64,000 nt of DNA from Actinomycetota bacterium (GTDB lineage Bacteria > Actinomycetota > Acidimicrobiia > IMCC26256 > PALSA-610): contig SXHN01000118.1 in assembly GCA_005773635.1 (NCBI GenBank), positions 124,001 to 188,000 on the forward strand. The letters run 5' to 3'. Positions 3,221 to 34,127 of the stretch are shown here, one piece after another. The position numbers were made by a program, and so were the translations under genes. Under the pieces are notes generated by a model. That model was not told the origin of the DNA. It saw nothing but the letters and a program-made list of their open reading frames with translations, and did no database searches. The first letter of the stretch is position 1; every line of letters begins with the position of its first letter.

Positions 3221-4708
3221 ATGCGAACACTTTCTCACTGGATCAATGGTCACTCCACGCCGGGCACGTCAGGTCGGCACAGCCCAGTATTCAACCCGGC
3301 GACAGGCGAGCAAACTGGCACCGTTGACCTAGCCTCGGTCACCGAGGTGGACGCCGCAGTCGCCGCCGCCGCGGCGGCGTTCCCGGCCTGGCGCGCCACA
3401 TCGTTGTCTCGCCGTAGCGAAATCATGTTTCGAGTGCGCGAGATCCTCGATGCTCGCCGCAAGGAGCTCGCCGAAATCATTTCGAACGAGCACGGCAAGG
3501 TCATCGCCGACGCTATGGGTGAAATCGCGCGCGGGCTCGAAAACGTCGAGTTCGCATGCGGAGTACCCCAAATGTTGAAAGGCGGCTTCAGCGAACAAGC
3601 GGCTAACGGCGTCGACGTCTACTCGATTCGTCAGCCCCTCGGCGTCGTCGTTGGTATCACTCCGTTCAATTTCCCTGCGATGGTGCCAATGTGGATGTTT
3701 GCGAACGCGATTGCAACTGGCAATACCTTCATCTTGAAGCCATCAGAAAAAGACCCAAGCGCGGCACTGTTTCTCGCCGAAGTACTGCACGACGCGGGTG
3801 TACCTGCGGGAGTGTTCAACGTGCTGCACGGCGACAAAGTTGCAGTCGATCGTTTGCTCGAGCATCCAACGGTACAAGCCGTGAGCTTCGTTGGATCTAC
3901 GCCGATCGCCAAGTACGTATACGAAACGGGCACCGCGCACTCGAAACGGATTCAGGCACTCGGTGGCGCGAAGAACCACATGGTCGTACTCCCTGATGCC
4001 GATATCGAAATGGCCGCCGATGCCGCGGTAAGCGCGGCATACGGATCCGCGGGCGAGCGGTGCATGGCGATCTCAGTGGTCGTCGCCGTTGGTGATTCGG
4101 CCGACCCGATCGTGGCCGCGATCGACACTCGCCTTTCGACGCTGCGTATCGGCCCCGGCAGTGATCCAGATTCCGAAATGGGTCCGCTCATCAGCAAAGA
4201 TCACCGCAACAAAGTTGCTGCTTACCTCGGTGCAGCAGAACGCGAAGGCGCCACCATCGTTGCCGACGGACGCAAGCTCAATGTCGAGGGAGATGGTTTT
4301 TTCCTCGGTGTTTCGCTCATCGACAATGTGCAGCCGGAAATGTCGGTGTACACCGACGAAATATTCGGGCCGGTGTTATGCATCGTGCGGGTTGCCACCT
4401 ACGAAGAAGCACTCGCACTGGTCAACCGCAATCAGTATGGCAATGGTGTTGCAATGTTCACACGCGACGGAGGCGCTGCCCGTCAATTCCAATTCGACGT
4501 GCAGGTCGGCATGGTTGGTATCAACGTTCCCATACCAGTGCCCGTCGCTTATTACAGCTTCGGCGGTTGGAAAGCTTCGCTCTTCGGCGACACCCACATG
4601 TACGGTCCCGAGGGCATGCAGTTCTACACGCGGGGCAAAGTCGTCACCAGCAGATGGCCCGACCCCACCACCTCGACGATCGATCTCGGTTTCCCACAAA
4701 ACCGTTAA
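3221..4708 (+). CDS. mmsA: CoA-acylating (methyl)malonate-semialdehyde dehydrogenase
   Basis: A 495-residue member of the aldehyde dehydrogenase superfamily. The catalytic cysteine is C281 in GSAGERCMAIS, the signature of CoA-dependent methylmalonate-semialdehyde dehydrogenases. Also present are the cofactor-site segment ITPFNFPAMVPMWMF and the family-typical tail FGDTHMYGPEGMQFYTRGK. The family converts malonate or methylmalonate semialdehyde with NAD and CoA to acetyl- or propionyl-CoA plus CO2. The ATG at 3221 (MRTLSHWINGH) is preferred to an upstream in-frame TTG at 3185, because the family N-terminus begins here and the TTG lies in the promoter region. The following aminotransferase could supply the semialdehyde from beta-alanine or 3-aminoisobutyrate, so the gene may be bauC in role. 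Confidence 0.9.
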   Translation: MRTLSHWINGHSTPGTSGRHSPVFNPATGEQTGTVDLASVTEVDAAVAAAAAAFPAWRATSLSRRSEIMFRVREILDARRKELAEIISNEHGKVIADAMGEIARGLENVEFACGVPQMLKGGFSEQAANGVDVYSIRQPLGVVVGITPFNFPAMVPMWMFANAIATGNTFILKPSEKDPSAALFLAEVLHDAGVPAGVFNVLHGDKVAVDRLLEHPTVQAVSFVGSTPIAKYVYETGTAHSKRIQALGGAKNHMVVLPDADIEMAADAAVSAAYGSAGERCMAISVVVAVGDSADPIVAAIDTRLSTLRIGPGSDPDSEMGPLISKDHRNKVAAYLGAAEREGATIVADGRKLNVEGDGFFLGVSLIDNVQPEMSVYTDEIFGPVLCIVRVATYEEALALVNRNQYGNGVAMFTRDGGAARQFQFDVQVGMVGINVPIPVPVAYYSFGGWKASLFGDTHMYGPEGMQFYTRGKVVTSRWPDPTTSTIDLGFPQNR

Positions 4709-4770
4709 CCATCAATCCCACAGCGTGCCAATAGCAGGCACTGTAACCGTCACCCATTCGAGGACATTTC

Positions 4771-6111
4771 ATGAGCACTGAACAAGATGTTCGCCACAAC
4801 GACCGCACCCACGTCTTTCACTCCTGGAGCGCACAACGCCAGATCAATCCACTGCCGGTCGCGGGCGGCGAGGGTTCGTGGTTTTGGGACTTCGAAGGGA
4901 ATCGCTACCTCGATTTCTCAAGCCAACTCATCAACCTCAACATCGGACACCAACACCCGAAGCTCATCGCCGCAATCCAAGAACAAGCAGGCAAGTTGTG
5001 CACAATCGCGCCCGCGTTTGCGAACGAGGCTCGCGGCGAAGCAGCACGGATGATCGCCGAGCGTGCGCCGGGCGATCTCAACATGGTGTTCTTCACGAAC
5101 GGCGGCGCCGAAGCCACAGAAAACGCCGCTCGCATGGCGCGTCTTCACACGGGGAAGCACAAGGTGCTCACTGCGTATCGCAGTTACCACGGTTCGACGA
5201 GTGGCTCAATCGCATTCACGGGCGACCCGCGCCGCTGGCCCAACGAACCAAGCGTCGGCGGAGTCGTGCACTTTCACGGCCCTTATCTCTATCGTTCGCC
5301 GTTCTACGCCGAGACCGAGATACAAGAATGCGAACGGGCGCTCGCTCACCTCGCCGACACGATCATGTTTGAAGGCGCCAACACCATCGCCGCCATCATG
5401 CTCGAACCGGTAGTCGGCACGAACGGCATCCTCGTTCCACCGCCGGGTTATCTCGCGGGAGTCCGCGAACTTTGCGATCAGCACAACATCGTGATGATTT
5501 GTGATGAGGTCATGGCCGGTTTCGGCCGCTGCGGCGAATGGTTCGCGGTACAGCACTGGGACGTGGCACCCGACCTCATCACCTTCGCGAAAGGCGTGAA
5601 TTCTGGATACGTTCCGCTCGGCGGCGTGGTCATCTCGCAGCGCATCGCCGACACATTCGCCGACCGAATCTTCCCAGGCGGATTGACTTACTCCGGCCAC
5701 CCGCTCGCCTGTGCCTCTGCAGTCGCAAGCATGAATATTTTCGAAGAAGAAGGCATCATCGACAACGCCCGCAGCCTGGGCACCGACGTTTTCGGACCTC
5801 AACTCCGCGCCTTGGCAGACCGTCATCCAAGCGTTGGCGAAGTACGCGGTCTCGGATGTTTTTGGGCACTCGAACTCGTGCGCAATCGCGACACTCGTGA
5901 GATGCTTGTGCCGTTCAATGCTGCTGGAGCCGACGCGACACCCATGGTTGAGGTCGTCAACGCGTGCAAGGCGCAAGGCTTATGGCCCTTTAGCCACTTC
6001 AATCGCATCCATGTGACGCCTCCCTTGATCATCAGCCCCGAAGAAGCCAAACAAGGTATTGCGATTCTCGATGACGCCCTCACGGTGGCCGACGGTTACT
6101 ACACGGGCTGA
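4771..6111 (+). CDS. Class III aminotransferase, omega-amino acid:pyruvate type
   Basis: A 446-residue fold-type I PLP enzyme. The PLP lysine is K274 (TFAKGVNSGY), the cofactor-ring aspartate is D245 (MICDEVMAGFGR), and the phosphate-binding segment is FFTNGGAEATENAARMAR. The overall pattern resembles beta-alanine:pyruvate and taurine:pyruvate aminotransferases. A GAGGA ribosome-binding site ends about 7 bases before the ATG. It lies 62 bases downstream of mmsA, and together they would turn beta-alanine or 3-aminoisobutyrate into a semialdehyde and then acetyl- or propionyl-CoA, under the divergent MocR protein. The exact amino donor is not readable from sequence; taurine is an alternative, though no sulfoacetaldehyde enzyme is nearby. 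Confidence 0.85.
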   Translation: MSTEQDVRHNDRTHVFHSWSAQRQINPLPVAGGEGSWFWDFEGNRYLDFSSQLINLNIGHQHPKLIAAIQEQAGKLCTIAPAFANEARGEAARMIAERAPGDLNMVFFTNGGAEATENAARMARLHTGKHKVLTAYRSYHGSTSGSIAFTGDPRRWPNEPSVGGVVHFHGPYLYRSPFYAETEIQECERALAHLADTIMFEGANTIAAIMLEPVVGTNGILVPPPGYLAGVRELCDQHNIVMICDEVMAGFGRCGEWFAVQHWDVAPDLITFAKGVNSGYVPLGGVVISQRIADTFADRIFPGGLTYSGHPLACASAVASMNIFEEEGIIDNARSLGTDVFGPQLRALADRHPSVGEVRGLGCFWALELVRNRDTREMLVPFNAAGADATPMVEVVNACKAQGLWPFSHFNRIHVTPPLIISPEEAKQGIAILDDALTVADGYYTG

Positions 6112-18072: not shown

Positions 18073-18828
18073 TTAAGTTTCTTGATGCTCATGGTCGGGG
18101 CGAACAAGCGCACGACCCGCGGAGCCCCAAGCTCGAACTCCGCCGATGAGATCAGTGGCGTTGAAAAAACCCAGTCGATGCAACGACGCCGCCGCAAGAC
18201 TCGAGCTGTACCCTTCGCTGCACAACACCACTAGCGTCTGATCGAAGCCAGTAATCGCCTCATGTTGATAGCCCGAAGCTGGATCCACGAGCCACTCAAG
18301 AACAGTCCGCGGCGCGTGTATCGAACCAGCAATCACACCATCTCGTTCTCGGTCGGTCGGAGTTCGCGTGTCGAGCAGAACCAACTGCGAATCGCGTGCT
18401 TGCAACGCGACGAGATCATCCACCGAAATCCGACGCAGCTCTTCCCTCGCATCGGCGACTAAGTCGTGGATCGTTGCGCGATCTGCTCGCCGCCACCACG
18501 CGACGCCATCGACGATTCCTTCGCGTTCTAGACCACACGCAACCGCGTGCCCAGCAACGAATGCATGCTCACCGGTCGCGAAACTACCCCTCGGCGCAAG
18601 GTTTGCCACGACGTTGTGAACAAGCAGCCGCGTCGCATTGGCATCGAGCATTGTCCACACGTCGGGGTGAATGACGACCGCAGCGACACGAACATCAAGT
18701 TGGACATGCTGCGCCCAATCGATCGGCGCGGTTGAGGGGAGCACGGCCAATACGCCAACGTCACCCAAAGACGCGATGACTGCCGACATATGAAACCCGG
18801 TCGTGACGCGTGCCTTCTCACCCTTCAT
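18073..18828 (-). CDS. Rhodanese-domain protein with methyltransferase-like N-terminal half
   Basis: A 251-residue protein whose C-terminal part is a rhodanese domain: VDDLVALQARDSQLVLLDTR, the CH2A-like REDGVIAGSIHAP region, and the active-site loop LCSEGYSSSLAAASL with its cysteine near position 195. The GGVRAW tail is also typical. The N-terminal half (RLLVHNVVANLAPRGSFATG, then GLEREGIVDGVAWWRRA) resembles the C-terminal strands of a class I methyltransferase, but no glycine-rich SAM loop is visible, so that half may be degenerate. Rhodaneses move sulfane sulfur from thiosulfate or persulfides. The ATG at 18828 with GAGGGG upstream is preferred to one at 18861. It is isolated from its neighbours by about 200 bases on one side. 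Confidence 0.78.
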   Translation of the reverse strand: MKGEKARVTTGFHMSAVIASLGDVGVLAVLPSTAPIDWAQHVQLDVRVAAVVIHPDVWTMLDANATRLLVHNVVANLAPRGSFATGEHAFVAGHAVACGLEREGIVDGVAWWRRADRATIHDLVADAREELRRISVDDLVALQARDSQLVLLDTRTPTDRERDGVIAGSIHAPRTVLEWLVDPASGYQHEAITGFDQTLVVLCSEGYSSSLAAASLHRLGFFNATDLIGGVRAWGSAGRALVRPDHEHQET

Positions 18829-18935
18829 GGCACTCGACCCCTCTGACCCGCAGGCACACAAACCAAACCCGCTGAAGTTGATGTTGCTTCCCAGCCGCAG
18901 GTCTTTGCGCGGCTTCGACTACTTCCGAGAGTACA

Positions 18936-20202: not shown

Positions 20203-21936
20203 TCAACCGAGATCAATGATGGTAACTACGCCGGTGTCGCCATCCACTTCGACGGTCGCGCCGTGAGGAATCAGCTGGGTGGCTCCGGTGGCCGACACGA
20301 TGCACGGAAGCCCGAGTTCGCGACACACGATGACGGCGTGGCTGATCTGTCCGCCAACGTCCACAACGACAGCCCCGGCTGTCATAAACAGTGGAGTCCA
20401 TGATGGATCCGTATGCGGCGCAACGAGCACGTCGCCAGGCTCCAATGCCGTCGGGTCATACGTATCGAGCACAATTTTGGCAGTCCCGCGCACCACGCCC
20501 GGCGAACCCGATACCCCAACGATGTGAGCACCGACTCCCATTGCGGGCTTGGCGGCGACTTCGGTGCGACGAGGCCAGTCGCGCAACGCCGGTAGTTGTC
20601 CGTCGCGGATGATAAACGGCGGCTCGATGTCGGCCAATGATTCATGGGTGGCCATTCGCTGCACAAGCAGCTCGCGAAATGCCGAAGGGTCACGCACGAA
20701 ATCGTCGAGCTCGGAGTTGAGCAACATGAAAACGTGTTCGGCATTCGCGATATTGCCTGCTTCTGCGTGTCGCCGACCAAGCTCGCGAAACGCCATCCGC
20801 GCCTCATGAATGACCTTAACGATCGTCGTTTTGGTGCGCTCCCGGTAGGCCATCATGTTCGCAGCGATCAGGGCCGCCTCGAACATCGCGGAAAGCTCAT
20901 CGTTGCCGACAACCTTGGCCCGAACCTCTGTCGTGACCGCGAGTCGCTGTGAAGCAACAACGTCGTGACGCGCTTCGGGAGACTCATCATCAGTTTGAAA
21001 CCGCACGCGATCGAGCGCCGCCAACGGAACGGTGGGTGACGACTCCCAGCTTTCTGCGTTGATATCCCATTCATTCGACCCGCGAGAACCAAATTCGTCA
21101 ATGAACGCTGCCCAATCCGCGAGCAACGCTGGCCCACCCGAAATCGCCTTCAGGCGATCGAGGACACCATCGAGACCTTCATCAAAAGCCGCCGTGAGTG
21201 CTGCGTCGCTGCGGATGACACGTGACATCGCCCACAGAGCATGGCTGGGAAGCGCCGAATCCACGTCACCAACTCCCGCGAGCAGCTTCATTGGAATCGT
21301 TGGGTCGCCAACGCCCTCACCTACCACTGCGAGAATCCCGGGCGCGACCGCGGCACTCGACCCCGAAATTACGTGCTGCTCAAAAAGGTGATGCAACATG
21401 GGGCGAATAGATCGCACGCGCGCCAAGAGCTCAGCGTCTGCGTACTTCGTCAGGTCACCACGAGCCTCTCGCAGTGCGGCCGCAGCAGACTTGTCTGTAT
21501 CAATCTCCGGCCAGCTACTCGCCGACATTACCCACGCCGTATTTGCGGCAATTTTCTCGACGAGATGAGGTTTCTCGTCGTCGGGATGCGCAACGTAAGC
21601 AGGCACGTCCGGATGCGCGCCGAAGAAGGCCATGTCGAGTTGCTCAACCGTCACTCCAGGATTACGCACACCCTGTAAACGACAACTCGACAGATTGAGA
21701 TAAAAGTAGCCGCCGAACATCCCGAACGTTTCGGGATGATCTGGATCAAAATCGGACAGCTCATGCGTCCCGCCGCGAATCCAACCGTCGCGCATGCCCA
21801 ACACCATTGCGCCATCCCAGCCGTATGTCCAGCCCAACGGACTCACGGGATCACCCATGACTTCACCAGCATTCGCACGCGTGTAATGCGGGAAACGTTT
21901 GCTGATCGGCCAGTCGGTTAGGTATCCATCGGTCAT
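20203..21936 (-). CDS. PEP-utilizer phosphohistidine-swivel protein lacking an ATP-grasp domain
   Basis: A 577-residue protein. The last 90 residues form the mobile phosphohistidine domain of PEP synthase/PPDK-type enzymes: SGSPGVVRGTAKIV, PGDVLVAPHTDPSWTPLF, and GGQISHAVIVCRELGLPC with the phospho-acceptor H533. The first 460 residues are not the ATP-grasp domain. They resemble the substrate-binding middle region of rifampicin-phosphotransferase-like proteins (for example EFGSRGSNEWDINAESWE). An ATP-binding partner would be needed, as in the split phenylphosphate synthase, or the protein works in another way. The start ATG 21936 has AAGGGG upstream. It is the first gene of an operon with the P450, behind the shared TetR-type operator. 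Confidence 0.8.
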   Translation of the reverse strand: MTDGYLTDWPISKRFPHYTRANAGEVMGDPVSPLGWTYGWDGAMVLGMRDGWIRGGTHELSDFDPDHPETFGMFGGYFYLNLSSCRLQGVRNPGVTVEQLDMAFFGAHPDVPAYVAHPDDEKPHLVEKIAANTAWVMSASSWPEIDTDKSAAAALREARGDLTKYADAELLARVRSIRPMLHHLFEQHVISGSSAAVAPGILAVVGEGVGDPTIPMKLLAGVGDVDSALPSHALWAMSRVIRSDAALTAAFDEGLDGVLDRLKAISGGPALLADWAAFIDEFGSRGSNEWDINAESWESSPTVPLAALDRVRFQTDDESPEARHDVVASQRLAVTTEVRAKVVGNDELSAMFEAALIAANMMAYRERTKTTIVKVIHEARMAFRELGRRHAEAGNIANAEHVFMLLNSELDDFVRDPSAFRELLVQRMATHESLADIEPPFIIRDGQLPALRDWPRRTEVAAKPAMGVGAHIVGVSGSPGVVRGTAKIVLDTYDPTALEPGDVLVAPHTDPSWTPLFMTAGAVVVDVGGQISHAVIVCRELGLPCIVSATGATQLIPHGATVEVDGDTGVVTIIDLG

Positions 21937-21967: not shown

Positions 21968-21987
21968 AACTAACCGCTCGGTTACTT
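21968..21987. promoter_or_regulatory. TetR-type operator, copy A
   Basis: AACTAACCGCTCGGTTACTT is an inverted repeat with 8 of 10 symmetrical pairs. It lies 32 bases before the start of the swivel-protein/P450 operon. The same element recurs at 29371, 33496 and 35547 in the promoter regions of other catabolic operons. A TetR-family gene ends within the 33496 copy, which is why it is the proposed binder. Confidence 0.65.
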
Positions 21988-22311: not shown

Positions 22312-23838
22312 TTACCGACCTGCCCAGTACGGCGCTCGCAGAGCACGACGACTGATTTTGCCCATCGACGTGCGGCCTAAATCGTCGACAAACTCCACCG
22401 AGCGCGGGCACTTAAACGCCGACAATCGTTGCCGGCAATAGGCGAGAATTTCGGCCTCGCTCACGGCGCAGCCCTGCGTCAACACCACCAAGGCCCGCAG
22501 TTCCTCGCCCATCTCAGTGTGTGGGATGCCGATGCAGGCAACATCATGGACGCCAGGGTGGTCGATGAGAAAATTCTCGACCTCGGCCGGATACAAATTC
22601 ACGCCACCCGAGACGACCATGTCCGAGAAACGGTCGGTGATGTACACGAAGCCTTCTTCGTCAATCCGACCCATTTCGCCGAGCGTAAACACCCCCGGTT
22701 CGAGATGTGCTGCGGCAGATTTCTCCGGATCATTGTGGTACACAATTCCTCGGCCGGTGGTGTCACGAAAGTACAGCTTGCCTTCAACATTCGGGCCAAC
22801 TGGTTGGTCGTCATCGTCAACGATTATGGCTTCAAACGGCGGATCGGCTTGCCCAACCGACCCGGGGTGTGCCAGCCAATCGACGCTGTTGATCGAACAC
22901 GTGGTGCCCACTTCACTTGCCCCGTAGGCCTCAAGAAACACAGGGCCCCACCACTCGATCATCGCACGCTTCACCTCATCAGGACACTTGGCACCGGTAT
23001 GCGCGACATACTCCATCGACGAGATGTCGTACCGAGCGCGCACTTCAAGCGGCAGGGCAAGAAGACGCACGAAGTGGGTTGGCACCATCACCGAACTCCG
23101 TGTCTTGTGACGATCGATCGCCGCGAGCGTGGCTTCGGCATCGAAACGACGAAGGATCACCGAGGAAGTACCTGCGGCGAGAATGCGCATGCCAGACAAC
23201 GGCCCGGTGTGGTACATCGGCCCAACCACAAGGTGCGGCCCGTAGTCGGCGAAGCGCGCATGCTTGAGCGCATCGAGATGCTGCGCCATCGTGTCTCCTC
23301 CGGCAAACATCGAAGGAGGAAGCTCAGTGCCTTTCGGCAAACCTGTCGTACCCGACGTATACAGCAGGTTCGGGCGGGGTCGGATCGACGTTGGCGGGTT
23401 CGCGTCATCCGCCCCACCAATCCAAGTCGTCCAGTCCACGACATCGTCATCGCCGCACCCACCCCAACCAACGATCGTCCCAACCCCAGCAGCCTTTGCC
23501 GCTTCAACGCCTCGAGCCGCTGTCTCGGGTCCTACGAACAGGATCGATGTGTCTGAATCTGCGAGGATGTATGCAGCCTCGGATGCATTCAGGTGAAAGT
23601 TGACCGGCACCGTCGAAGCTCCGCCAATCAAACAACCAAGGTGTGCCAACGCCGTCTCGGCTGCGTTCTCGGCGAACACTGCGACTCGGGCACTCGGACC
23701 CAGATCAGCGGCTAGCACCTGATTCGCCACGCGATTCAGCGTCGAGTTGATCTCGGACCAAAGAAACACTCGTTCACCATCAACGAGCGCGTGCTCGTCG
23801 GGTCGAAGTCTGGCGAGTGTCGCGGCAAATTCAGGCAC
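22312..23838 (-). CDS. Acyl-CoA synthetase (AMP-forming, FadD family)
   Basis: A 508-residue ANL-superfamily ligase that activates a carboxylic acid to its acyl-CoA with ATP through an acyl-adenylate. The motifs are LLYTSGTTGLPKG near residue 158, EAYGASEVG, ITDRFSDMVVSGGVNLYPAE (the hinge region) and the C-terminal catalytic lysine in SMGKISRRAL. The start is GTG 23838, only 2 bases past the stop of the histidine-phosphatase gene. This is the last gene of a tightly packed six-gene operon running from the molybdopterin oxidoreductase at 29361. It would supply the CoA thioester used by the thiolase-fold/DUF35 pair and dehydrogenases of the region. The acid specificity is unknown. Confidence 0.92.
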   Translation of the reverse strand: MPEFAATLARLRPDEHALVDGERVFLWSEINSTLNRVANQVLAADLGPSARVAVFAENAAETALAHLGCLIGGASTVPVNFHLNASEAAYILADSDTSILFVGPETAARGVEAAKAAGVGTIVGWGGCGDDDVVDWTTWIGGADDANPPTSIRPRPNLLYTSGTTGLPKGTELPPSMFAGGDTMAQHLDALKHARFADYGPHLVVGPMYHTGPLSGMRILAAGTSSVILRRFDAEATLAAIDRHKTRSSVMVPTHFVRLLALPLEVRARYDISSMEYVAHTGAKCPDEVKRAMIEWWGPVFLEAYGASEVGTTCSINSVDWLAHPGSVGQADPPFEAIIVDDDDQPVGPNVEGKLYFRDTTGRGIVYHNDPEKSAAAHLEPGVFTLGEMGRIDEEGFVYITDRFSDMVVSGGVNLYPAEVENFLIDHPGVHDVACIGIPHTEMGEELRALVVLTQGCAVSEAEILAYCRQRLSAFKCPRSVEFVDDLGRTSMGKISRRALRAPYWAGR

Positions 23839-23840
23839 CG

Positions 23841-24545
23841 TTATAACGCATTCATTGGATTGAGTTCAGTTTGGAACGATCGCACGTGCGTGTGATCATT
23901 CACCTGCACGACCCGGCGCATCTCGTCCATTGCCCGAACTGTCGTGATCGAAGTGTGATGCACAGTGCACGGAGTGTCGAGGCTCGATTCCAAACAATGA
24001 GCAAGGTATGCATTAATGACTCCACCATGGCACGCCACCGCGACGCGCTGGCCGACATGGGTCCGCATAATCGCGTCGATGGCGTGCACGACGCGTCGAC
24101 GAAACTGCTCGCGGGGTTCGCTGTAGGGATACGAATCCCAGCGTTGCGTGCGGTTGCCAGTTTGCATGATGGCTCGCAATGCTGCCGCGTCAAGCGAGTC
24201 GAGTAAGCCCTTGTCCTGCGGAAGTTCGCGCCAAAGATTGATCTCACCCAGGTCCTCGATTTCTGAGACTGTGAGACTGTGCGATTCGGCGATGGCACGC
24301 GCGGTATCGCGAGCACGCTGCAGCGTTGAGCTGTACACCGCACTGATATTGAGCGTCGACAAGCGTGCCCCGACTGCGGCCGCTTGACGAAGGCCGAGTT
24401 CCGACAGTGGCGCATCGACAGCGTCGGCCAAAGCCATATTGGTGGCAAGCACTTGTTCACCGTGCCGTACCAGTAGCACTTCGCACGCACCCTCGAGATT
24501 GGTGAGGAACGAACTAGCTAGATCGACTGAACGGACACGAGCCAT
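23841..24545 (-). CDS. Histidine phosphatase family protein
   Basis: A 234-residue phosphoglycerate-mutase-like protein. The catalytic RHG motif is in LLVRHGEQVLA, a phosphate-pocket arginine in SSTLQRARDTARAIA, and the second catalytic histidine in VAVACHGGVINAYL. The family removes phosphate from small molecules or proteins through a phosphohistidine. Its start ATG shares a base with the TGA of the thiolase-fold gene (TGATG), so translation is coupled. An in-frame TTG one codon upstream is less likely. Placement inside a CoA-ester degradation operon is unusual; dephosphorylation of an intermediate, perhaps made by the swivel protein at 20203, is a speculative link. Confidence 0.85.
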   Translation of the reverse strand: MARVRSVDLASSFLTNLEGACEVLLVRHGEQVLATNMALADAVDAPLSELGLRQAAAVGARLSTLNISAVYSSTLQRARDTARAIAESHSLTVSEIEDLGEINLWRELPQDKGLLDSLDAAALRAIMQTGNRTQRWDSYPYSEPREQFRRRVVHAIDAIMRTHVGQRVAVACHGGVINAYLAHCLESSLDTPCTVHHTSITTVRAMDEMRRVVQVNDHTHVRSFQTELNPMNAL

Positions 24546-25693
24546 CAACGGCTCAAAATCGTGACACCCGAGATGCCGGGTGATCCGTACACATGGGTGT
24601 AAGCCACTCTTGGATTGCCTTGCACTTGGCGCGGTCCCGCGTTGCCACGGAGCTGCACGACATTCTCATACACCTGACGCAAACCACTCGCACCAACTGG
24701 TTCGCCATTCGCGAGACACCCACCATCGGTGTTCACCGGGAATCGGCCGCCAATCTCGGTATCGCCGCGAGCGATCATCTCTTCTTGTTCGCCATGTTCG
24801 CAGAATCCGTTCTCGGCCATATGCATGATCTCCGCTCCGACCTCAGTGTCTTGCAACTGGGCGACATCGATGTCGTCAGGGCCAACTCCAGCCATCTCAA
24901 AGGCCGCCTTCGACGCATCGATTGTGGGGCCATCACCGCGTTCGGTCGCAAGATGCGGCGCCATCACTTCGAACGAACCGAAACGGCGCGACCGCACCAC
25001 CGCGGCTTTCAGGTACACCGGAGAATTCGTGAACTCTCGGGCGCGATCCGCACGACACAGCACGAGCGCGACCGCACCCTCAGCAGGAGAACAAAACATG
25101 TATTGCGTGAGCGGATACGACAACATGCGAGACGAACGCACTTCCTCCACACTCAGTTCATTGCGACGCCACGCCATTGGGTTCATCGCTCCATTACGTG
25201 ACGCTTTGTTAGCTACCGAAGCCAGCGTCGCATGACTGATGCCGTAGTCGTGCATATACCGGTTGATCTTCATGCCAAAAAACTGTGTGGTCAACGCGAG
25301 CCCAGACTCGCCGTACCAGTCTTCAAGACCATTCTCCTTGAGGTCAACGCGAAACGCGCCCCGTTCGTGTTTGTCAAAGCCGATAGCTATCCCTACGTCA
25401 AACATGCCTGATTTGATCGAGTTGTAAGCGCTAAATAGCGCCGACCCTCCAGTGGCGCAGCCGTTCGAAACGTTGATGAATTGCAGCCCGGTAAGCCCAA
25501 GTTTGGAAACCATGGTGTCGGCCGCACCCGCGGCTTGACTGCCACCAAACGCGAACTGAATGTCCTCCCACTGTATCGACGCGTCGGTCAACGCCCGCCG
25601 CACGGCCACGACACCTTGATCGATTCCTTCGACCCCATCGTGACGGCCAAACTCGTGCATACCAATTCCGACAATGGCGACGTCATCACTCAC
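24545..25693 (-). CDS. Thiolase-fold protein (SCP2/Ltp2-like), probable aldolase or thiolase
   Basis: A 382-residue thiolase-superfamily protein. The nucleophile-position cysteine is kept (C79 in NVSNGCATGGSAL). The usual GHPxGxxG motif reads NGEPVGASG with E331 in place of histidine, and the C-terminal catalytic CxG is replaced by YGSPGISG. Such changes are seen in SCP2-type proteins like Ltp2, which work with a DUF35 partner as retro-aldolases in steroid side-chain breakdown. Exactly such a partner precedes it with a GTGA overlap. So carbon-carbon cleavage by retro-aldol reaction is more likely than classical thiolysis, though this is inference. The start is GTG 25693. Confidence 0.85.
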   Translation of the reverse strand: MSDDVAIVGIGMHEFGRHDGVEGIDQGVVAVRRALTDASIQWEDIQFAFGGSQAAGAADTMVSKLGLTGLQFINVSNGCATGGSALFSAYNSIKSGMFDVGIAIGFDKHERGAFRVDLKENGLEDWYGESGLALTTQFFGMKINRYMHDYGISHATLASVANKASRNGAMNPMAWRRNELSVEEVRSSRMLSYPLTQYMFCSPAEGAVALVLCRADRAREFTNSPVYLKAAVVRSRRFGSFEVMAPHLATERGDGPTIDASKAAFEMAGVGPDDIDVAQLQDTEVGAEIMHMAENGFCEHGEQEEMIARGDTEIGGRFPVNTDGGCLANGEPVGASGLRQVYENVVQLRGNAGPRQVQGNPRVAYTHVYGSPGISGVTILSR

Positions 25694-26139
25694 GATTGGC
25701 TCAACTTCTCTGTAGCGGAGACAGGTGCAAACGCGAAAGTGACAACTTGTTCACCATTCTCGTTCACGTATAACGGTTCGAGGACCAATTCAAGTTCCAT
25801 TCCAATATCGAGAAAGTCGGGATCGGCGATCGTCAACCGAGACTCCACCAGTAACTTGCCGTCGATTTCGATGTAACCGACGCCGTATGGCTCGAATGTT
25901 GCCGGGTCAACGTTGCCCGCGTACGGCGGTGCTTTTGGAGGATATGACTGCACAGTCCATGTCCACAGTGTGCCACGGCGACCGAGTTCAACGGTCGTGG
26001 TTGACGCGCCACCACATTTTGAACAACCCGCTTGCAACGGAAACATATGGTTGGCACAGGCTGTGCAACGGCTCGCGAGAAGTTGCGGAGCGCCGCTCGG
26101 CCCGGTGAAAAGACCTTGAGCTACCGGAATCGTTTGCAA
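25690..26139 (-). CDS. DUF35 OB-fold/zinc-ribbon protein, partner of the thiolase-fold gene
   Basis: A 149-residue protein with an N-terminal rubredoxin-like zinc ribbon (CTACANHMFPLQAGCSKCG, four cysteines) and a C-terminal OB fold (GTLWTWTVQSYPPKAPPY, GYIEIDGKLLVESRL). DUF35 proteins bind acyl-CoA and form complexes with SCP2-type thiolase-fold enzymes. The start is the TTG at 26139, one base after the stop of the zinc dehydrogenase. The family N-terminus (GLFTGPSGAPQLLASRC) begins at once and there is no other start. It overlaps the thiolase-fold gene by 4 bases (GTGA). Together they probably form one enzyme. Confidence 0.88.
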   Translation of the reverse strand: MQTIPVAQGLFTGPSGAPQLLASRCTACANHMFPLQAGCSKCGGASTTTVELGRRGTLWTWTVQSYPPKAPPYAGNVDPATFEPYGVGYIEIDGKLLVESRLTIADPDFLDIGMELELVLEPLYVNENGEQVVTFAFAPVSATEKLSQS

Positions 26140-26140
26140 G

Positions 26141-27181
26141 TTATGAACTCCATGTTGGTTTCACTAATACCTTCATTTGGTTCGAAGCGCCGCTCGCTAA
26201 TTCCGCGAACGTAGCGGCGAGCCCTTCGATATTCGTTGTTGATGTGTGCAACTGATCGACGCGCACTACACCGTCAGCCAATAGATCCATCGCAGCTTCT
26301 ACCTCATGGCGTACATACCCAATCGCACTGACAGTGGTGATCTCTTTTCGAAGCCACGTTGCTGAGTCGATTGAGATGAGATCGTCCTTCAACCCGATCA
26401 TCGAAACGGACCCTCCGCGTCGAGCGAGGCCAACCGAGGCGGTAAGCGACTCCGTTCCGCCGACACAGTCGTACACGACATTGGCTCCGATACCGCGCGT
26501 GTGATCCGCGACGATGTCGGCCGCAGCTTCAATCGAACACACTGAGGTTGCACCAAGCTCGGAGGCCAAAGCTTGACGGAATACGTTCGGCTCAACGACC
26601 ACCACATCGCGAGCGCCAGCTGAAAACGCGCATTGCATCACTGTCAGGCCAACTGGCCCAGCACCAAGCACCACCGCGACGTCACCGAAGCGGAGTGCGC
26701 TGCGGTTGACAGCGTGCAATGCCACCGCAACCGGCTCGACTTGAGCCAGGGTCTCATCGTCAAGGTTCGAATGAGCCGACACGACTCTGCTCGCGTTCAC
26801 AGCGATGCGCGCCGCAAACCCACCGTGTGGCGGTGCATCAGGGTCGCGACCGTGCAGCACGCTGACACATACGGCGCAGTGGGCGCCCGACCCATCTACA
26901 CAGGCGGAACACAGTCCACAAGCAGGCGGCACGCCAACAACCACGCGGTCGCCCTCTTGAACCGCAACGACTCCCGTGCCAATCGCCGAAACTGTTCCCG
27001 TCCATTCATGCCCACAGATTGCAGGCCTGTAGACCCGACCCGAAACGTACGCATGCACATCAGTACCGCATATTCCGCAGTAACCAACGTCGACTACAAC
27101 GCATCCCGCGGCGGGCGACGGCTCGGGGAATTCCCGGATTTGGATTACGCCAGCACCCGTAATCAACGCCGCCAACATCAT
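26141..27181 (-). CDS. Zinc-dependent medium-chain alcohol dehydrogenase
   Basis: A 346-residue MDR-superfamily dehydrogenase. Catalytic-zinc ligands lie in CGICGTDVHAY and GHEWTG. A four-cysteine structural zinc lobe spans about residues 88-106 (CGLCSACVDGSGAHCAVC). The NAD(P) loop is LGAGPVGL near residue 172. It should oxidise an alcohol or polyol, or reduce a ketone, in the cytosol. Two ATGs (27181, 27178) are in tandem. The first overlaps the stop of the molybdopterin oxidoreductase by 4 bases (ATGA), so expression is coupled to that gene. It is the second gene of the 29361-22312 operon. Confidence 0.92.
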   Translation of the reverse strand: MMLAALITGAGVIQIREFPEPSPAAGCVVVDVGYCGICGTDVHAYVSGRVYRPAICGHEWTGTVSAIGTGVVAVQEGDRVVVGVPPACGLCSACVDGSGAHCAVCVSVLHGRDPDAPPHGGFAARIAVNASRVVSAHSNLDDETLAQVEPVAVALHAVNRSALRFGDVAVVLGAGPVGLTVMQCAFSAGARDVVVVEPNVFRQALASELGATSVCSIEAAADIVADHTRGIGANVVYDCVGGTESLTASVGLARRGGSVSMIGLKDDLISIDSATWLRKEITTVSAIGYVRHEVEAAMDLLADGVVRVDQLHTSTTNIEGLAATFAELASGASNQMKVLVKPTWSS

Positions 27182-29361
27182 TGCGCCACTTCGCTCACGG
27201 AGCGCACGCGCACGGGGATCGCGCTCTGCACAGCCATGCCAGTAATGCGGTCGAACCCTTCCTCGGTTGACACCAATCGGTTCGTGGCAACGCCTTCACG
27301 ACGCACATCAGCTGGTCCCGTTGATGCCCCACCCCACGAGTGTGACATCGACACAACACCACGCTTTACATCATCGGCCGCGGCGGCAACGCCAACGATC
27401 GCGCCGTGCTTCGATTCGATCTGCACCAAGTCACCATCGGCCAAGCCAAGCTGCACCAAATCGTCAGGGTGCATGTAGGCCGGGTTCGTCGTTCCTACGC
27501 GGGCAAGGCCAGGGAGTTCACGGCCAAGCGAGTTGACCACGTGTTTCATCCGGCGGCTGACCAGTCGGAACGAGAACGGGTTGCCTTGCAGGGCATCGAA
27601 GGTTTCGCCAGCACTTGGCTCCGCGAGAACTTCTTCGAGCTCCGCAACGACATCCGCCGGAGCCAGGTCGAAACGAGCACCGTCGAGCGAGTCGTCGTCA
27701 ACAACCAACACTTTGTTTTGCGGATGGATAACGCCGCGATTCGAGCGCATCTCCTGCATCGACAGTCGCGCGTTCGCATACACGAGATCGAGGATCGAGT
27801 CGTCGTCGACCGTGGGGTCGAGCACTCCGTTCGCATGCGGAATGCTTCCACCGGCCAATTGGATCTGTGTGCCGTTGCGCGCCGCGATTCCTGCGAATAC
27901 TTCCCATTCGGCAAGGAGATCATCTCCGCTGTCGAGTATCGCGGGGGTGTAATTACTGTACGGGGCGGGAAATCTGCTGTCCATGATGTGCGGCACATCA
28001 GCTCGCTCGAGCTCCAAGCGAGGAGCGATGACGTAGTGCGCTCGCTGCGCAGTTGGAGTCATACGAGGATCAATAACCACGAGTAGTTCCAACGAGTCGA
28101 GAGCCGCCTCGGTCTTGGCCTGATCTGGGAACGCCACAACAGGATTGCCACCCGCGACAATGAGCGCCCGGACCTGGCCTGCGCCGGGCGTGAGAATCTC
28201 ATCGGCAAGCCGACTCGTGAGCATCTCACCAGCCATACCGGACAATCCATGCATCCGATGCTCCGCACCTGGTGTGGGATCGGAAGGCGCAATAACCCGG
28301 GCGCAACGCGTACCGCCAGCCACAAGAAAGCTCCCATTCTCGAACCAGTCACCGGGTTGGCGTACACGGCCGCACAACACGTTCAGCGCCAAAGTGAGGT
28401 GCTCGGTCAACATCGAGTGTGGCGCCATGTTCGGGCCGGTGCCGGTGCCAGCCGATCCACGGGGACCCGTCGCAAACATCTCGGCGGCGACCGCTATGTC
28501 GTTGCTCGAAACGCGGGCCCGATTCGCAGCGTAATCAAGCGAGTATCCGTCGACGGCACGAGCCAACTCCGCGACGCCATCAACGTGGCGCTCGCAAAAC
28601 ACTTGATCGAACAACTTGTTCGCGAGAATGTGGCGAATCATGGCCGCTAGGACCACGGTATCTTCGCCCGGCTGCACCTGCAGCCAAACATTCGCCGCGC
28701 TCGCCAATTCAGTGCGGCGCGGATCAATCACGATCAGCTTCATGCCGCGATCACGAGCCTGGCGCAACGCAACAAACGGGTTCGTGCCTTGCAGACCGCC
28801 TGCGGGGCCGTAGCTCGATACCAACGGGTTGTAGCCGACGGCGAGAGAAACATTGGCGTCAGTGAAGTTGTCCCAGCCGGCTTCCCAGGTGCCCATCCGC
28901 AATCCGGCAGCGCGATGCGCGGGTTGATCGATCGTGATCGAGGTGTACATCGACGGAGATCCGAAGCCTGCATGCCAGGCCGAGGTCACAGCTACCGAGG
29001 TTGAATTCTGAAACGCGCCCGTTCCCGTGTAGCTCGCCACGGCACGGGGCCCATGTTCACCAACAATCCGCGCGATGGTACGTGCAATCTCATCAAGCGC
29101 GACCGACGAACTGATGGCTTCGAATCCCACTGCCGCGCGCCGAAGCGTCGCCCGAACCCGATCAGGATGGTGGTGCTGATCGCCAAGTTGGCGACCTTTG
29201 ATGCACGTATAACCGCCAAACAACGGATCATCGCGATCTCCACTGACGGCGATTACCGTGTTGCGGTCGGCAACCTTGATCTCGAGGGGGCAGGCAGCAT
29301 GACATACACGACAAAACGTCTTGTGCGTCTCCACTATCTGGTCACCTAACTGGTCCGGCAT
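27178..29361 (-). CDS. Molybdopterin (bis-MGD) oxidoreductase with N-terminal 4Fe-4S cluster
   Basis: A 727-residue member of the DMSO-reductase superfamily. An N-terminal [4Fe-4S] motif reads FCRVCHAACPLEIK with a fourth cysteine in GYTCIKGR about 27 residues on. Molybdopterin-binding segments follow, such as SYTGTGAFQNSTS, IVIDPRRTELA-type text (KLIVIDPRRTELASAANVWL), and the C-terminal dinucleotide domain (GLADGDLVQIESKHG). There is no Tat signal, so it should act in the cytosol. The ATG at 29361 is chosen because upstream in-frame sequence is antisense to the divergent SDR gene and has no family similarity. It is the first gene of a six-gene operon directly behind an operator-like palindrome. 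No dedicated electron-transfer subunit is adjacent, and the substrate is unknown. Confidence 0.9.
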   Translation of the reverse strand: MPDQLGDQIVETHKTFCRVCHAACPLEIKVADRNTVIAVSGDRDDPLFGGYTCIKGRQLGDQHHHPDRVRATLRRAAVGFEAISSSVALDEIARTIARIVGEHGPRAVASYTGTGAFQNSTSVAVTSAWHAGFGSPSMYTSITIDQPAHRAAGLRMGTWEAGWDNFTDANVSLAVGYNPLVSSYGPAGGLQGTNPFVALRQARDRGMKLIVIDPRRTELASAANVWLQVQPGEDTVVLAAMIRHILANKLFDQVFCERHVDGVAELARAVDGYSLDYAANRARVSSNDIAVAAEMFATGPRGSAGTGTGPNMAPHSMLTEHLTLALNVLCGRVRQPGDWFENGSFLVAGGTRCARVIAPSDPTPGAEHRMHGLSGMAGEMLTSRLADEILTPGAGQVRALIVAGGNPVVAFPDQAKTEAALDSLELLVVIDPRMTPTAQRAHYVIAPRLELERADVPHIMDSRFPAPYSNYTPAILDSGDDLLAEWEVFAGIAARNGTQIQLAGGSIPHANGVLDPTVDDDSILDLVYANARLSMQEMRSNRGVIHPQNKVLVVDDDSLDGARFDLAPADVVAELEEVLAEPSAGETFDALQGNPFSFRLVSRRMKHVVNSLGRELPGLARVGTTNPAYMHPDDLVQLGLADGDLVQIESKHGAIVGVAAAADDVKRGVVSMSHSWGGASTGPADVRREGVATNRLVSTEEGFDRITGMAVQSAIPVRVRSVSEVAQ

Positions 29362-29370
29362 CTTGGCTAA

Positions 29371-29390
29371 AACTAATCGCTGAGTTAGTT
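29371..29390. promoter_or_regulatory. TetR-type operator, copy B, between divergent operons
   Basis: AACTAATCGCTGAGTTAGTT has six perfectly paired outer bases on each side (AACTAA/TTAGTT). It sits in the 37-base space between the molybdopterin oxidoreductase operon (starts 29361, leftward) and the SDR/Rieske operon (starts 29399, rightward). One bound dimer could control both directions. The very short leaders suggest leaderless or nearly leaderless transcripts. Confidence 0.65.
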
Positions 29391-29398
29391 TCTTGCCC

Positions 29399-30193
29399 AT
29401 GGGACTGCAAGAAATGTTCGATATGACCGACCGCGTGGCCGTCGTCACCGGCTCCGGACAAGGAATTGGCCGCGCCATCGCGTGGGGTCTAGCCGATTTC
29501 GGCTGCGACGTCGTCCTGAATGCCCGCCGCATCGACGACCTTGAAGTGACCGCTGGGGGCGTTCGCGAACGTGGTCGCCGCGCCCTGATCTGCGCGGGCG
29601 ACATCCGTGACTTCTCTGACACGATTGCACAGCGGGCGATCGCGGAGTTTGGACGTCTCGACATTTGGATCAACAACGTCGGCGGCTCCGACGACAAAGC
29701 CACCCGGGCGTTGGTTGATACTCCGGATGATGTGTTCCGTTCACAACTCGAACTCAACCTCACAAGCGCGTTTCAAGGCTGCAAGGCCGCAGCGAAGCAC
29801 ATGAGCGACGGCGGTGCGATCGTCAACATCTCGTCGGGCGCGGGCACCAGAGGGTCACCGTCGACAGGGCCATACGCGGCGGCCAAAGCTGGTATGAACA
29901 ACATGACCCAAACATTGTCGTTGGAGTTGGCGCCCCAGATCCGCGTCAATGGAGTTGCACCGGGACCGGTCGTAACCGAGGCCTTCCTTGAAACGCTCAC
30001 CAACGATGCCGCCAAACTCGCAGAAATCACAGCATCCATTCCACTCGGCCGCAACGGCACACCCGACGACATCGCCGCCGCTGTGGTGTATCTCGCTTCC
30101 GACGCTGCGTCATGGGTGACGGGCCAACTGATTTTGGTCGCGGGCGGTCGCACGCATCGCACGGTGAACTACGTGCCTAAGGGCGCTTCGTGA
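29399..30193 (+). CDS. Short-chain dehydrogenase/reductase
   Basis: A 264-residue classical SDR with TGSGQGIGRA (cofactor loop), INNVGG, NISSGAGTRGS with the catalytic serine, YAAAKAG (Tyr-x3-Lys), and VAPGPVVTEA. It should interconvert an alcohol and a ketone with NAD(P). The ATG at 29399 is preferred to an in-frame TTG at 29393. No ribosome-binding site is visible and the operator ends 8 bases earlier, so a leaderless message is possible; an ATG at 29414 is an alternative. The stop overlaps the Rieske gene by 4 bases (GTGA), so both are in one operon with the following 79-codon gene. Confidence 0.9.
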   Translation: MGLQEMFDMTDRVAVVTGSGQGIGRAIAWGLADFGCDVVLNARRIDDLEVTAGGVRERGRRALICAGDIRDFSDTIAQRAIAEFGRLDIWINNVGGSDDKATRALVDTPDDVFRSQLELNLTSAFQGCKAAAKHMSDGGAIVNISSGAGTRGSPSTGPYAAAKAGMNNMTQTLSLELAPQIRVNGVAPGPVVTEAFLETLTNDAAKLAEITASIPLGRNGTPDDIAAAVVYLASDAASWVTGQLILVAGGRTHRTVNYVPKGAS

Positions 30194-31811: not shown

Positions 31812-32594
31812 CTAGTAGGGCATCGTCCCGCCGTCGACGGGAAACAATGTGCCGGTAATGTTTCGGCCCGAGGTTGACGCAAGCAACAACGCAACCGCAG
31901 CTACTTCGGAAATTTTGTTCGGTCGCTTGATCGCAGCACCCTGTGTGAACAAATCAATGAGCGCCTCATAACTTTCCAGGCCCATTGCTTCTGCCGATGC
32001 CGGGCCGTTTTCGGTGAGGTTGTCCGTCTCGGTCAGTCCGGGCAAGATTGCGTTGACCGTGATGCCCAATGTGCCGACCTCATGGGCCGCGGATTTCACC
32101 AGACCATTCACGGCGTGCTTCGCCGCGGTGTACCCGGGGATGCCGGGTTTACCAAGTTTGCCTTCAACCGATGAGGTCACAATGATGCGCCCGGTCTCTC
32201 GTGGGATCATGTGTTGCAGTGCACGCCGCATACCCCAAAAGACTTGGTTCAAATTCCAGTCCATTTCAAGTTGCCACTCTTCGTCGCTCATCGAAGCGAC
32301 AGGTCCGGTCTTGTCGACGCCACCGGAGTTGAGACAACAGATGTCGAGTTGGCCATAGTGAGCAATTGCGAAGTCGACCATGCCTTCGACGTCGGCTTGC
32401 TTTGATGCGTCGCCTTGGAAGAACACCGCGTTGTCGCCGGCGCCCATTTCAGCGAGACAACGAGCGCCTTTTTCCGCGTTGCGACCGTTGACGACGACCT
32501 TGGCACCTTCTGCGAGGAAGGCGTCGGCCATACCGCGTCCGATACTGCGCGTTCCGCCTGTGATTGCAGCAACTTTTCCGTCAAGCTTTCCCAT
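31812..32594 (-). CDS. Short-chain dehydrogenase/reductase, tandem paralogue 1
   Basis: A 260-residue classical SDR: cofactor loop TGGTRSIG, where serine replaces the usual glycine of TGxxxGxG; NSGG in place of NNAG; catalytic VTSSVEGK; YTAAK (Tyr-x3-Lys); and C-terminal PVDGGTMPY. The ATG at 32594 has GGGAG six bases upstream; an in-frame ATG at 32612 lies before this site. It is clearly paralogous along its full length to the next gene upstream (32646-33425), which ends 51 bases before this start. The pair may be a duplicated enzyme set for two successive alcohol steps or two subunits of one enzyme. It converges on the small gene at 31787. Confidence 0.9.
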   Translation of the reverse strand: MGKLDGKVAAITGGTRSIGRGMADAFLAEGAKVVVNGRNAEKGARCLAEMGAGDNAVFFQGDASKQADVEGMVDFAIAHYGQLDICCLNSGGVDKTGPVASMSDEEWQLEMDWNLNQVFWGMRRALQHMIPRETGRIIVTSSVEGKLGKPGIPGYTAAKHAVNGLVKSAAHEVGTLGITVNAILPGLTETDNLTENGPASAEAMGLESYEALIDLFTQGAAIKRPNKISEVAAVALLLASTSGRNITGTLFPVDGGTMPY

Positions 32595-32645
32595 TGTGGG
32601 CTCCCGCTTCATTAGTACGGCTAGAAAGGGCGAATAGCACGAGCG

Positions 32646-33425
32646 TTAGTATGGCGACGTGCCGCCGTCGATTGAAATGAGCGACCCGGTTATACCCGCA
32701 CCCGCATCGGATGCAAGTAGCACCAACACCTCAGCAACGTCTTCGACCTCATTGAGTCGTTTGATCGCAGACGCTTGCGCGAACATGTCCTTCAAAGCGT
32801 CGTAGGTCATACCCATAGATTCAGCCGCAGCTGGTGCGCTGTCGAGCATCGCATCAGTTTCGATGGCGCCCGGGCACACCGCATTGATTGTGATGCCGAG
32901 CGTTCCAACTTCTTTCGCGGACGTCCGCACCAGCGCGTTGACCGCGGCCTTCGCGACCACATAGTTCGACAAGCCGGGAGTGCCGACCTTTCCTTCCACC
33001 GACGATGTCGCAATGATCCTGCCACTGCCCTGCGGGATCATGAACGCGAGCGCGGCGCGCATCGACCAAAAGGTATGCCAATAATTGACCAACAAGGTGC
33101 CTTGCATTGCTGCATCAGTCATCGCAGCAACCGGTGCAGGGTCGACCGCGCCACCCGCGTTGGCATGCAAGATATCGATCTTGCCGTAGCGATCGACCGT
33201 CGCTTGAATCAGTGCCTCGCAGTCCTCGCGCACGGCCACGTCGCCGACGACGAAGTGCGCGTTGTCCCCCGCGCCCATCTCGGCCAACGCTTGTGCGCCT
33301 TTGGCGGCATCACGTCCGCTGACCACGACCTGCGCGCCCTCGCGAAGAAACGCCTCAGCCACGGCGCGACCGATACCACGGGTGCCGCCTGTGATGCAGG
33401 CGACCCGTCCCTCAAGTTGACCCAT
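32646..33425 (-). CDS. Short-chain dehydrogenase/reductase, tandem paralogue 2
   Basis: A 259-residue classical SDR: TGGTRGIGRA, ANAGG, ATSSVEGKVGTPG with the catalytic serine, YVVAK (Tyr-x3-Lys) and ISIDGGTSPY at the end. Large parts, such as EMGAGDNA, SSVEGK and EVGTLGIT, are shared with the neighbouring SDR at 31812-32594, so the two arose by tandem duplication. Both keep Ser-Tyr-Lys, so neither looks inactive. It starts at ATG 33425, 71 bases downstream of the near-perfect TetR-type operator at 33496 and of the TetR gene, making it the first gene of a two-SDR operon under that regulator. Confidence 0.9.
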   Translation of the reverse strand: MGQLEGRVACITGGTRGIGRAVAEAFLREGAQVVVSGRDAAKGAQALAEMGAGDNAHFVVGDVAVREDCEALIQATVDRYGKIDILHANAGGAVDPAPVAAMTDAAMQGTLLVNYWHTFWSMRAALAFMIPQGSGRIIATSSVEGKVGTPGLSNYVVAKAAVNALVRTSAKEVGTLGITINAVCPGAIETDAMLDSAPAAAESMGMTYDALKDMFAQASAIKRLNEVEDVAEVLVLLASDAGAGITGSLISIDGGTSPY

Positions 33426-33495: not shown

Positions 33496-33515
33496 TACTA
33501 ACCGCGCGGTTAGTT
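33496..33515. promoter_or_regulatory. TetR-type operator, copy C (best palindrome)
   Basis: TACTAACCGCGCGGTTAGTT has an uninterrupted 18-base perfect palindrome (33497-33514). It overlaps the stop codon of the TetR gene (33510-33512) and lies upstream of the two-SDR operon. It is the best match to the consensus of copies A, B and D. A regulator binding at its own gene end could repress the downstream SDR genes directly. Confidence 0.7.
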
Positions 33516-34127
33516 CTTTGCGACGTATCCGTCGATGAGCAGCAAGAATCCATCAACGGCACGTCGGTGTTCGCGCAAATCTGCTGACAATCCGTCGGTA
33601 AGGCCGATATTGAACGCCCTGATAAAGCTAATGAGGCGGGCCCGATCACCCTTCGCAACCTCACCAGTCGATATGCCTCGGTCGACAATCGCCTCAAAGA
33701 AACCTTCACCTCTCGTATCGCTTCGACCCAGTGCGGCACCGAGACCTGCGTCGCGCAACCGATCGATCCGCGCCGAGCCCAGAAAACGGGCCAACGTTGG
33801 ATCGGAGCGATTGAGTTGGTGAGCGACCTCGTACACCGCTCGCAGCTTGGCAACAAACGAGTCGGCTTCGCGTTCCGCGAGCGCGAAGCGCGCGTACACC
33901 TGCTCTTGAAGTTCGTCGAGCACAGCCTTATAGATGTCAAGCTTCGAATCGAAGTAGTGGTAAATCGCGGCGGTCGTGATTCCGGCTTCGGAAGCCAGCA
34001 TCCGGTTGGTAGTGGCCTCATACCCATAATCGCCAAAGCATCGCCGAGCGACGCCAATGATCCTGCCGCGGGTCTCCGCAGAACTCGATGACGGCGGACG
34101 GCCAAGGCGGGGAGCTTTCGAAGCCAC
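33510..34127 (-). CDS. TetR family regulator, candidate master regulator of the catabolic region
   Basis: A 205-residue TetR protein with the DNA-binding domain at about residues 20-65 (RCFGDYGYEATTNRMLASEA, then GITTAAIYHYFDSKLDIY) and a helical ligand domain. A basic, serine-rich N-terminus (KAPRLGRPPSSSS) precedes it. Its stop codon lies inside a perfect palindrome of the type found before four operons of this region, and it is the only TetR gene in the catabolic block. It is divergent, with 77 bases between, from an acyl-CoA dehydrogenase gene. The likely ligand is a CoA thioester or pathway intermediate, by analogy with regulators of fatty acid and sterol catabolism. That assignment is inference. 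Confidence 0.9.
   Translation of the reverse strand: MASKAPRLGRPPSSSSAETRGRIIGVARRCFGDYGYEATTNRMLASEAGITTAAIYHYFDSKLDIYKAVLDELQEQVYARFALAEREADSFVAKLRAVYEVAHQLNRSDPTLARFLGSARIDRLRDAGLGAALGRSDTRGEGFFEAIVDRGISTGEVAKGDRARLISFIRAFNIGLTDGLSADLREHRRAVDGFLLLIDGYVAKN

Follow-up and report, generated by a model that had tools for sequence, protein, structure and literature searches.

A phosphohistidine swivel protein of Acidimicrobiia with an RPH-type substrate domain and no dedicated ATP-grasp partner gene

This analysis concerns a gene at 20203-21936 (-) of the window, the whole 64,000-nt stretch of DNA that was analysed, encoding a 577-aa protein that joins a substrate domain like that of rifampicin phosphotransferase (RPH) to a C-terminal histidine swivel and has no ATP-grasp domain. 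Two-component small-molecule dikinases (HpeHI, CreHI and PpsAB) carry out ATP-dependent phosphorylation with release of AMP and Pi; their characterisation is recent, and each of them includes an ATP subunit of its own. The window protein is a variant of these systems, with the build of HpeH, CreH and PpsA, no dedicated ATP subunit and one residue of the swivel signature lost. That it performs phosphotransfer of some kind is probable. We favour, with rather less confidence, the fuller reading that it is the phosphohistidine-carrying substrate component of an RPH/HpeH-type phosphotransferase, working in a Cre-like order of steps and charged by a non-dedicated donor.

The open reading frame starts with ATG, and its product has a single Pfam match, PF00391 (PEP-utilizers, residues 499-569, E 4e-23), which marks the swivel at 20230-20442 (-); PF01326 (PPDK_N) was not detected in the Pfam scan. 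A PDB search aligned RPH of L. monocytogenes (5FBS) to residues 235-575 (E 2e-27), with RPH H825 opposite H533, the predicted phosphohistidine (codon at 20338-20340 (-)), and the catalytic R666-E667-x-x-K670 of RPH opposite R365-E366-x-x-K369 (20830-20844 (-)). The three RPH residues act in the second phosphotransfer step (PMC4844700). In the family sequences covering each site, H533 is conserved in 39 of 39, E366 in 41 of 41, K369 in 40 of 41 and R365 in 38 of 41. An AlphaFold model for which 21 family members were used (mean pLDDT 86, pTM 0.88) has RPH as its best Foldseek match over the whole query (5FBT, 5FBU and 5HV1, E ~1e-23, TMq 0.68-0.69), followed only by much weaker matches to the swivel domains of pyruvate kinase and PPDK. 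Because the match spans the whole query, the N-terminal 230 residues can be assigned to an RPH-type substrate domain, predicted from the alignment to 5FBT to occupy about residues 18-460 (20557-21885 (-)), and an ATP-binding domain hidden in the N-terminus is ruled out by the model. The full-length fold match and the single Pfam domain together indicate that the protein is RPH minus its ATP-grasp domain. Pfam, PDB search and model agree that, as modelled, it is the substrate half of RPH plus the swivel, with nothing else in place of the ATP-grasp domain. The preliminary description had placed H533 in a PEP-utilizer swivel motif, had found the ATP-binding domain missing and had likened a long region to the RPH substrate domain, and all three points are borne out.

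A scan of GTDB genomes recovered full-length relatives at 41-69% identity, nearly all from Acidimicrobiia MAGs (L012-L036), and others at 36-41% on Rhodococcus megaplasmids; the window's own genome has a 71% paralogue on contig C87. The family comprises two paralogue types that differ around the histidine, GGQISH (type I, to which the window protein belongs) and GAVASH (type II), often found in one cluster. Both types share a cluster, sometimes in tandem, in L012, L017, L018, L019, L020, L025, L029 and L031, where the two may be partners in a heteromer or may each handle one of two consecutive substrates. The L019 and L025 loci are near-identical, though one MAG is titled Acidobacteriota and the other Actinomycetes, so one is probably misbinned or mistitled. 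In a quick maximum-likelihood tree of 79 substrate-domain/swivel sequences, with several long branches and SH-aLRT as the only support measure, fused RPH-like and adjacently split forms stand apart from a group of 60 rows. This group contains one fused long-branch outlier, five members with a short PPDK nearby and 54 "orphans", a term referring only to the fetched DNA, in which no ATP-grasp gene was found, since some fetched loci are short. The clade of the window protein has 41 rows and a support of 100.

The swivel gene heads its own transcription unit, which continues 13 nt downstream and on the same strand with a 417-aa cytochrome P450 (18936-20189 (-); PF00067, E 1e-23), as first described, and then with a rhodanese-domain protein (18073-18861 (-); PF00581, E 2e-11). 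Of 34 loci from the window's clade, 19 have a P450 gene no more than 5 kb away (eight of them from near-identical marine relatives), against a background in the window's own 3.56-Mb genome of about 21-22 P450 genes, or roughly one per 160-170 kb. The window P450 gave CYP125-, YjiB- and vitamin-D-hydroxylase-like matches in the PDB, and CreJ is not among the best 60 PDB matches listed for it. Upstream of the swivel gene are encoded an AMP-forming acyl-CoA ligase (22312-23838 (-); NCBIfam acyl-CoA synthetase models, E 5e-120, below the curated cut-off), a branch 1 histidine phosphatase (23841-24548 (-); PF00300, E 1e-36), a thiolase or lipid-transfer-protein-like protein (24545-25693 (-)) paired with a small protein weakly like the thiolase subunit BbsA (25690-26139 (-); NCBIfam BbsA, E 5e-9, below the cut-off), a member of the Zn-dependent alcohol dehydrogenase family (26141-27181 (-)), and a molybdopterin oxidoreductase whose start is probably inside the ORF (27178-29763 (-)) and whose cluster, c4, occurs in the loci of 10 relatives. 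The phosphatase lies 1.9 kb upstream of the swivel gene, in the next operon and not directly adjacent. Histidine phosphatases accompany family members in four contexts (L114, L126/L127, L154 and the window), and homologues also adjoin a short PPDK in L228 and L232-L234. The phosphatase singled out in the preliminary description is thus a recurring neighbour of the family; that it belongs to the same pathway in the window's genome, and there undoes a phosphorylation, we infer.

A palindrome, TAACCGCTCGGTTA (TAACCGnnCGGTTA), at 21971-21984, 35 nt before the ATG of the swivel gene, is a probable TetR-type operator. A second exact copy at 33499-33512 precedes two SDR genes (31812-33425 (-)) and lies at the 3' end of a TetR-like gene (33510-34127 (-)), probably the common regulator of the SDR operon and the swivel gene. 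A genome-wide exact search for TAACCGnnCGGTTA returned these two copies only, with no ATP-grasp gene at either, and the suggestion that an ATP-grasp gene might be found under the same operator therefore failed, the sole other site preceding SDR genes.

The search for a partner covered the whole of the window's genome (95% complete, 125 contigs), where neither the Pfam family nor a profile of split-type subunits revealed a stand-alone ATP-grasp partner. PPDK_N occurs there only in an 885-aa full-length PPDK with a PEP barrel (contig C69) and in an unrelated 1009-aa fused protein (contig C17), and there is no short PPDK, the form with ATP-grasp and swivel but without the PEP barrel. The C17 protein (L005, 4857-7886 (+)) combines a nucleotidyltransferase-like N-terminus with PPDK_N and a swivel in an apparent polysaccharide gene cluster. 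PPDK_N is wholly absent from 16 of the 24 genomes with close relatives; missing sequence is no explanation for this, since rpoB is present in 13 of these 16 and in 20 of the whole set. With a profile of six ATP-grasp subunits from adjacent split pairs, 15 of the 16 genomes gave no match at E<=1, and the sixteenth a single one at E 0.5. The searches are able to recognise such subunits, as adjacent split H/I pairs were detected in several genomes from the same order (L139, L140, L141 and L137). Ten Actinomycetota carrier genomes, the window's included, are at least 94% complete: one of them (G454, 95% complete) has no PPDK_N, and the other nine have it within a full-length PPDK or other long proteins; most genomes in the order have a PPDK regardless. 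The loci of the Acidimicrobiia relatives contain no ATP-grasp gene. The separate ATP-binding partner envisaged in the preliminary description was thus not found in the window's genome or in those 16 carriers. That description would have been abandoned if, besides, close homologues had lost H533, and they have kept it.

Other candidate donors were considered and rejected. In some relatives the family gene is overlapped by that of an LLM-class protein (cluster c7), a kinase candidate by position that reads by sequence as an LLM flavin/F420-type oxidoreductase. APH-type kinases are encoded near family members on Rhodococcus plasmids and are absent from the Acidimicrobiia loci. A PPDK-type donor cannot be general, because 13 rpoB-bearing genomes and G454 have family members and no PPDK_N at all.

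On plasmids the situation is different in that a short PPDK accompanies the family. These proteins, annotated as pyruvate, phosphate dikinase and about 460-580 aa long, consist of PPDK_N and a swivel with no PEP-binding domain, and are encoded alongside orphan swivel proteins on plasmids of Rhodococcus, Mycobacterium and Diaphorobacter. All seven plasmids bearing a non-fused, near-full-length relative (H1-H6 and H10) carry one, at distances from <1 kb to hundreds of kb, a count that leaves out three Thioclava among the top-ten matches, annotated with a PEP/pyruvate-binding domain. This suggests the short PPDK as a candidate shared donor that charges swivel proteins, on the strength of few plasmids, several of them related. 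In Rhodococcus sp. ZPP the short PPDK is adjoined by a histidine phosphatase 39% identical to that of the window (E 8e-26), and three other Rhodococcus plasmids have homologues of it at the same place. Plasmid pRB98 of R. oxybenzonivorans encodes several swivel proteins, then a short PPDK, and beyond it a biotin-dependent carboxylase set, an OB-fold/thiolase pair and a phosphatase; this gene set resembles the Hpe pathway, whose steps are phosphorylation, carboxylation and dephosphorylation (PMC9618137).

Further split arrangements were also seen. On pRB98 (L229, 2186-13680) and in L235 (4706-9494), small swivel-only proteins are paired with separate proteins of 380-525 aa beside a short PPDK, one of these being fused in the order swivel to substrate-like domain; such pairs are three-piece versions of the dikinase. 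The window's genome has a second, further split system on contig C80 (L113), where a 116-aa stand-alone swivel ORF (3734-4084 (+)) is followed by an ORF of ~390-410 aa (3985-5220 (+)) homologous (E 6e-45) to the pRB98 proteins encoded near the short PPDK; this short contig shows no ATP-grasp neighbour. The pairing seen on the Rhodococcus plasmids recurs in another genome of the order (G051; L222, 1-3035 (-)), where a short-PPDK-like ORF has a histidine phosphatase ORF immediately downstream.

In the mechanism that we propose, H533 would be phosphorylated and would then swing to the substrate domain, where R365, E366 and K369 would help it to phosphorylate a pathway intermediate on a hydroxyl or another acceptor group. 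Because there is no dedicated ATP-grasp subunit, H533 would have to receive its phosphate in trans from a donor that is not dedicated to it. In rhodococci this could be the short PPDK, and in the window's genome the housekeeping PPDK, which is the one ATP-grasp candidate that the searches found there. The phosphate would serve as a temporary handle. CreJ of the Cre pathway oxidises a phosphorylated intermediate, and by analogy the adjacent P450 may oxidise the phosphorylated or a nearby intermediate, after which the histidine phosphatase encoded one operon upstream would remove the phosphate and the products of the CoA-ligase and thiolase genes would carry on. The earlier proposal that the enzyme phosphorylates a pathway substrate is supported by the invariant H533 and the RPH phosphotransfer residues, and phosphotransfer itself is likely. 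Weighing against the full reading are V525 in place of the Thr/Ser of HpeH, the location of the phosphatase in a separate operon, and the carriers that have no PPDK_N protein.

Three donor options remain: charging in trans by a housekeeping or short PPDK, ATP-independent transfer from metabolite to metabolite, and an unrecognised donor. A wider scheme, which we put forward tentatively, is a PTS-like hub in which one ATP-grasp/swivel protein, a short PPDK or in the window's genome the housekeeping PPDK, charges many substrate/swivel proteins in trans, with an unrecognised donor in the marine Acidimicrobiia without PPDK_N. If this were true, a new phosphorylation specificity would need the gain of a substrate half only. 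ATP-independent transphosphorylation, in which H533 takes phosphate from one metabolite and gives it to another by the second RPH half-reaction alone, is rather unlikely. HpeH alone moves phosphate from 4-phosphoacetophenone to acetovanillone (PMC12167813), PPDK_N is totally lacking in many carriers, and in many loci types I and II share one cluster; the HpeH rate without ATP is low, however (2.7 nmol/min/mg; PMC12167813), and on plasmids the family travels with a short PPDK, which in those cases speaks for a donor that draws on ATP.

It could also be argued that the system is a classic two-component dikinase whose dedicated HpeI/PpsB-like subunit is absent from the assembly or too diverged to be detected, given a genome that is 95% complete in 125 contigs, the need of all characterised split relatives for their I subunit (HpeI, CreI or PpsB) in ATP-dependent activity (PMC12167813), and the adjacent H/I pairs found in the same order. 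This is improbable in view of the carriers with rpoB and no PPDK_N, of the split-type profile, which detects such subunits elsewhere in the order and yielded next to nothing in those genomes, and of the lack of an ATP-grasp gene in the Acidimicrobiia loci or under the shared operator. Least probable, and very much so, is that the fold has been kept for a non-kinase task, as a ligand-binding protein or a phosphatase-like or eliminating enzyme: the loss of the Thr/Ser found in HpeH at position -8 and the GAVASH of type II would fit with this, but across the family H533, R365/E366 and K369 vary little or not at all, and phosphatases recur as neighbours.

A large clade, widespread in Acidimicrobiia and present also on Rhodococcus catabolic plasmids, thus keeps the phosphohistidine machinery without the ATP subunit. 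It raises the question of what phosphorylates these swivel proteins, and opens the idea of a shared phosphoryl donor to direct test; if true, a shared donor would explain the diversification of phosphorylation-initiated catabolism in actinobacteria. Annotation is also corrected, as many genes labelled "PEP-utilizing enzyme" encode neither an ATP-binding nor a PEP-binding domain.

Among known systems, the split phenylphosphate synthase invoked in the preliminary description is an apt comparison, because HpeH, CreH and PpsA, the components of two-component phenolic dikinases that carry substrate domain and swivel (PMC12167813), have the same build. Like them, the window protein is one chain of similar size with an RPH-type substrate domain, a C-terminal swivel with a conserved phosphohistidine (the H581Q change in HpeH abolishes activity; PMC12167813), an Arg-Glu/Lys block and a catabolic gene context. 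It differs in that their ATP-grasp subunit belongs to the gene set and none was found here. It also keeps only part of the HpeH swivel signature T/SxxGGxxxH (PMC12167813), with GGQISH retained and V525 at position -8, and is only distantly related in sequence to the split pairs of its order. RPH-Lm (5FBS, 5FBT and 5HV1) matches it in fold over the whole query and has counterparts of its catalytic residues in H825, R666, E667 and K670, but is one fused chain with an ATP-grasp domain, and the window protein reaches 151.9 bits where the NCBIfam equivalog model for RPH sets its cut-off at 999. The short PPDK bears the ATP-grasp domain that is missing here, whereas the PPDK of the window's genome is full length with a PEP barrel. 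The 4-cresol pathway of C. glutamicum (creC-J) starts with phosphorylation by CreHI (PMC12167813, PMC9618137), and its cluster encodes creH and creI with the P450 creJ and the phosphohydrolase creD (PMC7764795). The window has no I component, but by gene content, rather than by sequence, it resembles the cre cluster in bringing together an H-type component, a P450 and a phosphohydrolase in one neighbourhood.
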